Of a stretch of DNA of 64,000 bases, positions 25,900 to 35,121 are shown one piece after another (the first letter of the stretch is position 1; each line of letters opens with the position of its first letter). Origin of the DNA: an uncultured Hyphomonadaceae bacterium. Its GTDB lineage: Bacteria; Pseudomonadota; Alphaproteobacteria; Caulobacterales; Hyphomonadaceae. The translations under genes were made by a program, and so were the position numbers. The DNA is taken from NCBI GenBank assembly GCA_938084575.1, contig CALKFG010000006.1:124001-188000 (forward strand), given 5' to 3'. The notes under the pieces are model-generated. The model was not told the origin of the DNA and did no database searches. It was given only the letters and a program-made list of their open reading frames with translations.

Positions 25900-26832
25900 A
25901 TGCAGACTGCAATCTTGATTTACGGACCGACGGCGAGCGGAAAGACGGAATTGTCGCTCGATTTGGCCGAACGTCTGAACGGCGAAGTTGTAAACGCCGA
26001 TTCCATGCAGGTCTATCGGGATCTCAAAGTGGTATCAGCGCGTCCCGGGCAAGATGAAACTGGCGATATACCACATCATCTTTTTGGACATCTGCCCGCT
26101 TCTGAACGCTACTCGACCGGGCGGTGGCTGCGCGATGCCAGCCAGATCATTGAGGATATTTGGAAGCGTGGGAAATTGCCCATCGTTACAGGCGGAACAG
26201 GTCTGTATCATCTGGCTCTGGTCGAAGGTCTGTCGGAAATTCCGCCTATTCCGGACGAGGTTCGCCATGATGTTGCCAGCTGGCTGCGCGACAGGGGGGT
26301 CGAGGGCTTGTATGCCCAGTTGAAACAAAGGGATGCCGATGCGGCAGCGATTTTGAATCCCTCCGACCGCCAGCGTATTGCGCGCGCGCTGGAGGTGTTT
26401 ACCGCCACCGGACAATCCATCACCAGCTTTCGGGGGAAACGTAAGCCCCCCATCATGACTTCGGGACAATGGCTTGGCATCGCTCTAACGCCGCCGCGCG
26501 CGCGTCTTTACGCCCGGATTGATAAACGATTTGAGGGGATGCTGATGGAAGGTGCCATGGAAGAAGCGCGCGGATTATTGGCGCAGGACCTGGCAGAAGA
26601 TCTGCCGGCTATGAAGGCCGCCGGAATCCCATGGCTTTTGGCGTATCTTCGAAAAGAGATCAGTGCCGAGCTTGCGGCTCAGAATGCCAAGCGGGACACA
26701 CGGCGTTATGCGAAACGGCAATTCACCTGGATTGGACGGCAGTTTCCTTTTTGGGTTCGTTTGCCCGGTTTGCAGCTTGAGGCGCGCCGAAGGGTAATTC
26801 TTGCTTTACACAAGGAACTTGACGGGGGTTAG
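25900..26832 (+). CDS. miaA: tRNA dimethylallyltransferase MiaA
   Basis: A 310-residue enzyme from the ATG at 25900. The frame is open from 25540, but that region is antisense to serB. The P-loop GPTASGKT is at residues 9-16; then come NADSMQVYRDLKVVSARP, TGGTGLYHLALVEGL and the C-terminal KRQFTWIGRQ, all typical of MiaA. It transfers a dimethylallyl group to N6 of A37 in tRNAs that read UNN codons. Its 3' end overlaps a plausible promoter for the following ilv operon. It is divergent from serB. Confidence 0.95.
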   Translation: MQTAILIYGPTASGKTELSLDLAERLNGEVVNADSMQVYRDLKVVSARPGQDETGDIPHHLFGHLPASERYSTGRWLRDASQIIEDIWKRGKLPIVTGGTGLYHLALVEGLSEIPPIPDEVRHDVASWLRDRGVEGLYAQLKQRDADAAAILNPSDRQRIARALEVFTATGQSITSFRGKRKPPIMTSGQWLGIALTPPRARLYARIDKRFEGMLMEGAMEEARGLLAQDLAEDLPAMKAAGIPWLLAYLRKEISAELAAQNAKRDTRRYAKRQFTWIGRQFPFWVRLPGLQLEARRRVILALHKELDGG

Positions 26833-26847
26833 GGGGTCAGTTATTCC
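26819..26847 (+). promoter_or_regulatory. Candidate promoter for the ilvB leader
   Basis: TTGACG at 26819-26824 is followed after 17 bases by TATTCC at 26842-26847. The -35 is close to consensus and the -10 only partly so. It overlaps the last codons of miaA and would start transcription just before the leader peptide ribosome site. Support is by position and spacing only. Confidence 0.4.
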
Positions 26848-26878
26848 CCGCCGCAACGGTTTTTGGAGGAAACGCCCA

Positions 26879-26917
26879 ATGCGATCCATGCTCGGTGTGG
26901 TGATGTTGCACGTGTAG
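26879..26917 (+). CDS. ilv operon leader peptide
   Basis: A 12-residue reading frame, MRSMLGVVMLHV and a TAG stop. A strong GGAGGA ribosome site sits about 9 bases before the ATG. Five of the 12 codons encode leucine or valine (CTC, GTG, GTG, TTG, GTG), exactly the kind of control codons used for branched-chain amino acid attenuation. It ends 35 bases before a terminator hairpin that precedes ilvB. The frame is far below usual gene-length cut-offs. Function is inferred from position, codon content and the hairpin. Confidence 0.7.
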   Translation: MRSMLGVVMLHV

Positions 26918-26951
26918 CTGGTGTTTTGCCAGCTGCAGGTGCTTGCCGTCG

Positions 26952-26977
26952 GGGTCTCTGAAAAGGGGCCCTTTTTT
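26952..26977 (+). terminator. Attenuator terminator upstream of ilvB
   Basis: A stem GGGTCTC (26952-26958) pairs with GGGGCCC (26965-26971) as seven pairs including two G-U, around a six-base loop, followed by six T residues (26972-26977). The site lies between the leader peptide and ilvB, so it fits an intrinsic terminator that is relieved when the ribosome stalls on the leader Leu/Val codons. Another small hairpin (GCTGG/CCAGC) sits just after the leader stop. Confidence 0.65.
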
Positions 26978-27030
26978 ATTACTCGCCCTGTTCCGTATTT
27001 ATAGTAACCAAAACACCAAAGGACCCTGTT

Positions 27031-28809
27031 ATGGAAACGCAGACCCCGACAGAGACAACCGCCTCAACCCGCATGATGACCGGAGCCGAGATTGTGATCG
27101 AGGCCTTCAAGGAACATGGCGTCGATGTCATTTTCGGGTATCCGGGCGGTGCTGTGCTGCCCATCTATGACGCCTTGTTCGAAGCCGAGGAGGTTCATCA
27201 TGTCCTGGTTCGCCACGAACAGGGGGCAGGTCATGCGGCTGAAGGATATGCCCGCTCGACGGGGCGACCAGGAGTTGCTTTGGTAACATCCGGTCCTGGT
27301 GCGACCAATATGGTCACGCCAATTACCGACGCGATGATGGATTCGATCCCCATGGTGGTGATCACGGGCCAGGTTCCGACGCATCTTATCGGCACGGATG
27401 CATTTCAGGAGTGTGATACGGTTGGCATCACCCGGGGGTGTGCCAAGCACAATTACCTCGTGATGCATGTCGATGATTTAGCCCGGACACTGCATGAGGC
27501 ATTTCTGATCGCGACAACCGGTCGTCCAGGCCCTGTCGTGGTTGATATTCCCAAGGACGTCCAGTTCGCGACCGGGGCCTATGTCCGCCATGAGGGGATC
27601 AGGAAGGCAACCTACAAACCTCAAACCGAGCCGCATCCGGTGGTGATCGAAGAAGCGGTTGCCCTGATGCGCAAGGCGCAGCGTCCAGTGTTCTACACCG
27701 GGGGAGGCGTGATCAATTCGGGCCCGGCGGCGTCAGAGGCTTTGCGTGCCTTGCAGGCGGAAACCGGGATCCCTGTGACCAGTACCCTGATGGGCCTCGG
27801 TGCGTTTCCTGCGTCTCATCCGGACTGGCTTGGAATGCTTGGCATGCATGGTTCTTATCAGGCCAATCATGCGATGCATGACTGTGATCTGATGATTTGT
27901 GTGGGGGCCCGGTTCGACGATCGTGTGACCGGTCGGATCGACGCCTTTTCTCCGGGTTCAAAGAAAATCCACATCGATATTGACCCGAGCTCAATCAATA
28001 AAGTGATCCGGGTCGACCTTCCGATCATTGCCGATTGTGGCCGCGCGCTGGAGGCCCTCTTGACGGCCTGGAAAGGCAGCCGCGCCGTCGCGCCGGATCT
28101 CTCTCACTGGAAAGACGAGATCAATGTCTGGCGTGCCCGGAATTGTTTTGCCTATGAGCCCAGCGATACAGTGATTAAACCGCAATATGCGGTCGAGCGG
28201 CTCTACGAGCTGACCAAATCGTATAACCCGTATATTTCGACCGAGGTTGGCCAACATCAGATGTGGGCCGCACAGCACTTTCATTTCGAAGATCCCAATC
28301 ACTGGATGACATCTGGAGGTCTCGGGACCATGGGATATGGTCTCCCAGCCGCGGTGGGCATTCAGGCCGCGCATCCGGGTGCGCTGGTCATCGATATTGC
28401 GGGAGAAGCGAGTGTGCAGATGGTGATGCAGGAGCTTTCGACCGCGGTTCAGCACGAGTTCCCAATCAAGATTTTCATCCTGAACAATGAGTGGATGGGA
28501 ATGGTCCGCCAATGGCAGGAATTGCTGCATGGCGAACGCTATTCACATTCCTATTCGGAAAGCCTTCCCGATTTTGTCAAACTGGCCGAGGCTTATGGCG
28601 CAAAGGGACTTTCCTGTTCTGACCCGAAAAAACTGGATGCCGCGATATTGGACATGATCAACCATGATGGCCCCGTGGTTTTTGACTGCCGGGTTGCCAA
28701 GGAAGAAAATTGCCTGCCGATGATTCCTTCAGGCGCGGCACACAATGAGATGATCCTGTCCAAGATTTCAGGTGATGAGATTAGTGAAGCTGGCCGCAAG
28801 CTGGTGTGA
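27031..28809 (+). CDS. ilvB: Acetolactate synthase large subunit
   Basis: A 592-residue thiamine diphosphate enzyme. The N-terminal PYR-type domain has FGYPGGAVLPIYDAL and catalytic Glu63 in VRHEQGAGHAAEGYARS. The central FAD/Rossmann-like domain carries VGARFDDRVTGR. The C-terminal TPP motif reads IDIAGEASVQM...NNEWMGMVRQWQELL, the form common in alphaproteobacterial AHAS. The enzyme condenses two pyruvates, or pyruvate with 2-oxobutyrate, at the start of Val/Leu/Ile synthesis. The SD is AAAGGA. The regulatory subunit follows at 28909 and ilvC at 29500, behind the attenuator at 26879-26977. Confidence 0.96.
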   Translation: METQTPTETTASTRMMTGAEIVIEAFKEHGVDVIFGYPGGAVLPIYDALFEAEEVHHVLVRHEQGAGHAAEGYARSTGRPGVALVTSGPGATNMVTPITDAMMDSIPMVVITGQVPTHLIGTDAFQECDTVGITRGCAKHNYLVMHVDDLARTLHEAFLIATTGRPGPVVVDIPKDVQFATGAYVRHEGIRKATYKPQTEPHPVVIEEAVALMRKAQRPVFYTGGGVINSGPAASEALRALQAETGIPVTSTLMGLGAFPASHPDWLGMLGMHGSYQANHAMHDCDLMICVGARFDDRVTGRIDAFSPGSKKIHIDIDPSSINKVIRVDLPIIADCGRALEALLTAWKGSRAVAPDLSHWKDEINVWRARNCFAYEPSDTVIKPQYAVERLYELTKSYNPYISTEVGQHQMWAAQHFHFEDPNHWMTSGGLGTMGYGLPAAVGIQAAHPGALVIDIAGEASVQMVMQELSTAVQHEFPIKIFILNNEWMGMVRQWQELLHGERYSHSYSESLPDFVKLAEAYGAKGLSCSDPKKLDAAILDMINHDGPVVFDCRVAKEENCLPMIPSGAAHNEMILSKISGDEISEAGRKLV

Positions 28810-28908: not shown

Positions 28909-29451
28909 ATGGATGATCCAGCAAGCGCTTATGATATGAGCCACATCGATGAGCAGGCGGAAAAGTGTACCCTTGCCATCCTGGTAGATAACGAGCCCGG
29001 GGTTCTTGGCCGGGTTGTCGGGCTGTTTTCAGCGCGCGGCTATAATATTGAAAGCCTGACGGTTGCAGAGGTTGACCAAAGGCGGCATCGATCCCGCATT
29101 ACGATCGTCACCATCGGCACGCCGGCCATGCTGACGCAAATCAAGGCCCAGCTTCTTCGCCTCGTGCCTGTCGCCACTGTAACGGATATCAGCAAGTCGC
29201 GGCTTGGACTTGAGCGTGAACTGACGCTCCTTAAAGTCGCGGGGAAAGGCGAGAAGCGGGTCGAAGCGCTGCGCATTGCCGAAATTTTCCGTGCACGCGT
29301 CGTCGACACGACCAATGAGAGCTTTATTTTTGAGTTGACCGGCTCCAGCGAGAAGATTGATGAGTTCCGGAACCTGATGAAGCCTCTGGGGTTGATCGAA
29401 ATCAGCCGCACCGGCGTTCTTTCCATCAAGCGTGGCGCCGAAGCCAGCTAA
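28909..29451 (+). CDS. ilvN: Acetolactate synthase small (regulatory) subunit
   Basis: A 180-residue regulatory subunit. The first ACT domain begins CTLAILVDNEPGVLGRVVGLFSARGYNIESL, where valine binds in homologues; a second half-domain covers roughly residues 95-175 (LTLLKVAGKGEKRVEALRIAEIFRARVVD). It binds the catalytic subunit and confers valine feedback. The gap to ilvB is 99 bases and to ilvC 48 bases, so one transcript is likely. The symbol ilvH is also used for this protein. Confidence 0.95.
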   Translation: MDDPASAYDMSHIDEQAEKCTLAILVDNEPGVLGRVVGLFSARGYNIESLTVAEVDQRRHRSRITIVTIGTPAMLTQIKAQLLRLVPVATVTDISKSRLGLERELTLLKVAGKGEKRVEALRIAEIFRARVVDTTNESFIFELTGSSEKIDEFRNLMKPLGLIEISRTGVLSIKRGAEAS

Positions 29452-29466
29452 AAATTGACCAATTAA

Positions 29467-30516
<1,050 letters not shown>

Positions 30517-35044: not shown

Positions 35045-35121
35045 GGTTCGGTAGCTCAGCTGGTTAGAGCGCACGACTCATAATCGTGAGGTCGGGAGTT
35101 CAAGTCTCCCCCGAACCACCA
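35045..35121 (+). tRNA. tRNA-Met (anticodon CAT)
   Basis: A 77-base cloverleaf. The acceptor arms GGTTCGG (35045-35051) and CCGAACC (35111-35117) pair perfectly, the D arm is GCTC/GAGC, the anticodon stem CACGA/TCGTG encloses the loop CTCATAA with anticodon CAT, the T arm is GGGAG/CTCCC, the discriminator base is A and the CCA end is encoded (35119-35121). Elongator Met and the lysidine-modified Ile2 tRNA share this anticodon, so Met is the likelier but not proven call. An integrase remnant begins right after the 3' end. Confidence 0.93.

Follow-up and report, generated by a model that had tools for sequence, protein, structure and literature searches.

A predicted ribosome-mediated transcription attenuator with an isoleucine-free leader peptide upstream of ilvBNC in a Hyphomonadaceae bacterium

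The branched-chain amino acid operon ilvBNC of an uncultured Hyphomonadaceae bacterium is preceded by a very short open reading frame and a hairpin followed by a T-run, which raises the question of whether the region between miaA and ilvB senses the supply of the pathway's products through translation of a leader peptide, as was proposed in the initial annotation. We addressed this question in a 64,000-nucleotide stretch of the genome (the window) and in the ilvB upstream regions of related bacteria. The genome of the window comprises 2.33 Mb in 16 contigs at 96% completeness and was compared with 28 congeners. Based on the sequence, its conservation and the predicted folds, we consider it probable (about 0.86) that positions 26819-27030 form a ribosome-mediated transcription attenuator of ilvBNC.

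The downstream genes are those named in the initial annotation, all three scoring above their NCBIfam cut-offs on the forward strand: ilvB for the large subunit of acetolactate synthase (27031-28809; NF006581, 1054.4 bits against a cut-off of 974), ilvN for its small subunit (28909-29451; NF008864, 206.7 bits against 119), and ilvC for ketol-acid reductoisomerase (29500-30516; NF004017, 548.1 bits against 336). A pyruvate kinase gene follows ilvC, and miaA, with its stop codon at 26830-26832, lies upstream of the leader; both were assigned with NCBIfam. From miaA to ilvB, the elements are arranged in the order of a promoter-like block, a GGAGGA motif, the leader frame, a hairpin that we call P1, and a terminator. 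The promoter-like block (26819-26845, forward strand) overlaps the 3' end of miaA and consists of TTGACG at 26819-26824 and GTTATT at 26840-26845 (TTAT at 26841-26844). When 58 regions, the window among them, are aligned, its TTGAC and TTAt rank among the best-conserved bases 5' of the leader, and a consensus scan returned no sigma-70-type promoter match at the block; judged from its sequence, it may act as the promoter. The left boundary of the initially annotated feature, 26819, is the first base of the TTGAC block conserved in relatives.

Direct reading of the forward strand places a 12-codon frame encoding MRSMLGVVMLHV at 26879-26917, with an ATG start at 26879 and a TAG stop at 26915-26917. 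Leucine or valine is specified by codons 5, 7, 8, 10, and 12 (five of the 12), isoleucine by none, and two internal methionine codons are present. The Shine-Dalgarno motif GGAGGA occupies 26865-26870, 8 nt 5' of the ATG. Hairpin P1 (26908-26942, forward strand), recognized by folding and covariation, takes the end of the leader and its stop codon into its 5' arm, while its 3' arm is non-coding. The predicted terminator (26951-26977, forward strand), found by folding and by a terminator scan, has nine pairs (26951-26959 with 26964-26972), a four-base loop, and six T residues at 26972-26977; the distance from the stop codon to the stem is 33 nt. The initial annotation was accurate in its description of the frame, its five Leu/Val codons, the lack of Ile, the ribosome site, and a stem-loop with six T residues within 35 bases. 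Four hallmarks of an attenuator are found at this locus as sequence features, namely a short reading frame led by a Shine-Dalgarno motif, codons of the pathway (although not those for Ile, which the pathway makes as well), a hairpin containing the stop codon, and a terminator before the first gene.

This arrangement was not reproduced by chance. When 26833-27030 was shuffled 4,000 times with its dinucleotides preserved, no shuffle produced a Shine-Dalgarno-led frame with at least five Leu, Ile, or Val codons followed by a terminator, and 18 produced the frame alone. Across the 64-kb window, both strands considered, two frames pass the frame criteria, and a terminator follows only the one encoding MRSMLGVVMLHV. 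The predicted fold of 26850-26982 reaches -58.4 kcal/mol (z = -4.39; none of 200 shuffles as good); the terminator stretch at 26945-26980 is less extreme (z = -2.07; 9 of 200 shuffles as good).

The ilvB upstream regions of relatives were then compared, the best named ilvB matches being Henriciella, Hyphomonas, and Hyphomonadaceae. The 106 usable ilvB loci gave 89 distinct regions, from which 62 at 71.6% or higher ilvB identity were retained, the window included, with the identity cut chosen after inspection of the list; L007, L019, L036, L043, and L107 had been dropped for short upstream sequence. Leader frames were picked by a motif list written after the upstream regions had been viewed, and shuffle tests served as controls. 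A leader at the same position was found in 58 of the 62 distinct regions, that is, in the window and in 57 of 61 Hyphomonadaceae-like relatives, which bears out the leader-peptide reading of the initial annotation, for which an unconserved frame had been named as the refutation. Under a stricter test (Shine-Dalgarno motif, at least four Leu, Ile, or Val codons, and a terminator), 54 of 62 regions passed, whereas none of the 62 did so in any of five rounds of shuffling. GAGG lies within 20 nt 5' of the start codon in 47 of the 58 leader regions, window included, and a terminator is present in 56 of them, 33-38 nt 3' of the stop codon in 44 of these 56. The 58 leaders, which start with ATG (25), GTG (19), or TTG (14), encode 39 distinct peptides, MRPTVVLVIRHLR and MRKYVVLVIKHP being frequent forms among the relatives. 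The four loci L080, L081, L082, and L083, with 72-74% ilvB identity, had no leader by the criteria used. At E <= 0.001, a DNA search with 26819-27030 matched 7 of the 28 congeners, and in four the match spanned query bases 1-159. In an alignment of 45 leaders (A1), the anatomy and the position upstream of the orthologous ilvB match those of Caulobacterales ilvB leaders. Neither the usual GAGG site nor the Arg codon common at the second position is found in the leader MFLTKVLVIKHS of L004, in a metagenome-assembled genome titled Hyphomonas sp. TMED17, though P1 and the terminator are retained. The leader of the nearest relative (G024, represented by L019/L043 with 92% ilvB identity) is unreadable because its contig begins within ilvB, and searches of this genome with the miaA frame and with the leader DNA gave no match; the Ile-free peptide MRSMLGVVMLHV therefore rests on one assembly.

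The codons available for sensing vary among these leaders. At least one Ile codon occurs in 49 of the 58, and the nine Ile-free cases are the window, L014, L046, L068, L070, L072, L074, L075, and L077, with L072, L074, L075, and L077 labelled as Ponticaulis. The Leu/Val-only code pointed out in the initial annotation is thus correct for this genome without being unique to it. Loss of isoleucine synthesis as the cause of the Ile-free code was rejected as far as ilvA goes, since this gene is present above its family cut-off in the genome of the window. The common leader pattern is M-R-x-x-x-V-L-V-I-R/K-H-P/L, and 47 of the 58 leaders start with M-R. Judged by eye on the alignment, the window leader retains the His codon and a CTC codon for Leu; ATG stands at the position of the Ile codon of most relatives, and the Val codons are shifted. 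An in-frame GTA is found in 55 of the 58 leaders and is absent from the window leader, L066, and L070. The window leader uses GTG three times, a codon common there (28% of the valine codons of five genes in the window), and its sensitivity may be reduced because it has no in-frame GTA, which makes up 4% of Val codons in the same five genes.

The missing Ile and GTA codons, the two internal Met codons, and the ATG at most relatives' Ile codon are also what would be seen if the attenuator were conserved in the family but had decayed in this lineage, with most sensing codons lost and the terminator left as a fixed brake. Such decay is improbable in our judgment, given that the leader still has its Shine-Dalgarno motif, its reading frame, its length, and five Leu/Val codons, that P1 and the terminator persist, and that Ile is likewise absent from 8 of the 57 other leaders. 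A considerably more remote explanation is that the frame is there by accident, with the hairpins terminating miaA and ilvB being transcribed from a promoter of its own further downstream. The end of miaA is indeed close by (26832), and some miaA transcripts would be expected to end at the terminator, but an incidental frame is at odds with the finding that 58 of 62 regions share the leader frame, its type of codons, and its spacing while the shuffles do not, and with the position of the conserved promoter-like block ahead of the leader. Control of the operon by a T-box, riboswitch, or protein-binding RNA instead of a translated leader would fit the strong structure of the region but is the least credible of all, since what is conserved is an open reading frame that has a ribosome site and pathway codons, and no Rfam family scored above its cut-off at the locus (the only model above its gathering score in the whole window was a tRNA at 35045-35118), on which ground a riboswitch or T-box at this site was rejected.

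Returning to the attenuator, we assessed its helices across the leaders. A list of 48 leaders was obtained from the 58 by removing L070 and L072 (no terminator detected), L055, L066, L076, and L078 (by hand), and four identical ones; alignment A1 holds 45 of the 48, with L074, L075, and L077 left out. With RNAalifold, the MAFFT alignment yielded just six pairs, all within P1, and so pairs named from the folds were counted instead, a choice that favours those pairs. By this count, both partners had changed in 12 of the 16 P1 pairs, and the paired share of cells was 83.5%. For P1 together with a six-pair start-codon helix, 82.8% of cells were paired versus 77.4% in column shuffles and 25-49% when the pairs were slid, although further pair types in the two helices were no better than in shuffled alignments (155 of 500 as high). 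Ten rows of VVVL/VIVL type had just 7-8 of the 16 P1 positions paired, and L065 had 9, which probably reflects alignment shifts. The 5' arm of P1 contains the leader stop codon, so that a ribosome at the stop would cover this arm.

The start-codon helix joins the start and Arg codons to the strand directly 3' of P1. Of the 45 rows, 30 allow at least five of its six pairs and 15 no more than four; in the window leader four of the six pairs can form and are unused in its minimum-energy fold. At L044, L058, L062, and others, GUGCGC (the start and Arg codons) is complementary to GCGCAC between P1 and the terminator. The minimum-energy fold of 26880-26955 in the window contains instead a candidate outer helix (26891-26954, forward strand), one strand of which is the control-codon region (CUCGG, UGGUGA) and the other the spacer together with the beginning of the terminator arm, several of the pairs being G-U. 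This helix has an ensemble frequency of 0.13 and is not in the centroid; a comparable one in 11 sister sequences had 98 of 99 cells paired, with one pair changed on both sides. As a weak candidate for further pairing, it would be predicted to compete weakly with the terminator.

Three equilibrium-folding tests on 41-45 leaders did not reveal a convincing antiterminator released by a stalled ribosome, and the antiterminator for which folding had been suggested in the initial annotation was accordingly not found. The full-length terminator and opening-cost tests used 41 of the 48 leaders (all but L074, L075, L077, L017, L025, L065, and L062). In the former, the median of the lowest terminator probabilities was 0.97; pairing fell to lowest values of 0.64-0.80 in three leaders (L045, L024, and L027) and was never at 0.80 or below in the other 38, whatever the ribosome position, under equilibrium rather than co-transcriptional folding. 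For the window leader, predicted terminator pairing stayed at 0.94-0.98 at every ribosome position tried. Mean pairing of the terminator 5' arm before its 3' arm is made, calculated for 45 leaders, was approximately 0.3-0.5 with the ribosome at early codons and approximately 0.55-0.6 at later codons, at the stop, and without a ribosome. The cost of opening this arm, for which only sequence downstream of the ribosome was counted, was lowest in the 14 leaders of 13 codons during stalls at codons 5-7 (0.2-0.4 kcal/mol) and peaked at 2.6 kcal/mol with the ribosome at codon 2 or absent; in the window leader it amounted to 2.7 kcal/mol at codons 7-8 and 2.8 kcal/mol at the stop. The terminator 5' arm was thus no harder to reach during control-codon stalls in the 41 leaders, and the modelled trend in opening cost in the 13-codon leaders is the opposite of that of a classical antiterminator. 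This leaves two options, namely that co-transcriptional folding is decisive or that the switch operates by some other means.

The frame, its Shine-Dalgarno motif, the terminator, the operon, and P1 are observed in the window, as is their conservation in the relatives; from them we infer leader translation, termination, and a response to starvation. Transcription would start near 26850, and a ribosome would begin the 12-codon leader. With charged Leu- and Val-tRNAs at hand, it would reach the TAG quickly and cover the 5' arm of P1, whereupon RNA polymerase would halt at the 26951-26977 terminator. When Val or Leu is scarce, the ribosome would stall on codons 5-10, P1 could form, and more polymerases would continue into ilvB. 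Against an attenuator we counted the steady predicted pairing of the terminator, its unblocked 5' arm, the null result for pair types, the absence of GTA, and the single assembly. Classical attenuation is nevertheless kept as the likeliest mechanism, since the leader codons and the terminator show joint conservation and the Caulobacter system has been described in these terms.

A more tentative and on balance unlikely proposal is that Caulobacterales ilvB leaders switch without a classical antiterminator, the position of the first ribosome deciding both whether P1 forms and whether the leader start is closed; as part of the same proposal, and with the same reserve, the clade of the window would have a weaker start-codon helix and control codons that can pair with the spacer and the foot of the terminator. 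Across the 58 regions and their 39 distinct peptides, the sensed code shifts among mixes of Ile, Val, and Leu, with nine lacking Ile. This leader set could be used to test how codon choice sets the sensed amino acid and whether the start-codon helix is part of the switch.

In the open-licence collection searched, Hyphomonas does not occur in one paper with "leader peptide", nor Henriciella with "attenuation", and among the titles listed none reports such an amino-acid sensor for the genus of the window. The text of PMC2965389, on premature terminators, does not contain "ilv", and a search of PMC4833913 for ilv terms gave no match. PMC4117421 (citing Tarleton, Malakooti and Ely 1994) describes transcription attenuation of Caulobacter crescentus ilvBN that depends on a leader carrying Ile and Val codons in tandem, in agreement with the earlier description of attenuation there to which the initial annotation had referred. 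As far as that account goes, our locus resembles it in the same operon start, a short leader of branched-chain codons, and a terminator hairpin, whereas the code there comprises Ile and Val, that of the window only Leu and Val, and the peptide sequence differs. At two Caulobacter/Caulobacterales loci with ilvB identity lower than that of the 62-region set (L099 and L091), a P1-like hairpin and then a terminator come after the leaders MRNTIIVLTKRPTAA and MRNTIVVLTKRPTAA. PMC1273637, with reference to Vitreschak et al. 2004, lists a leader peptide of ilvB in alphaproteobacteria as having been described before; by that mention, the resemblance consists in a peptide encoded ahead of ilvB in this class. 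The Corynebacterium glutamicum system likewise places an attenuator ahead of an ilvBNC operon, and is credited in PMC11857589 with three hairpins, whereas the window has P1, the terminator, and a weak candidate for further pairing. The window leader is therefore a sensor of a kind already known, to which it adds a case in this genus and a recurrent Ile-free variant.
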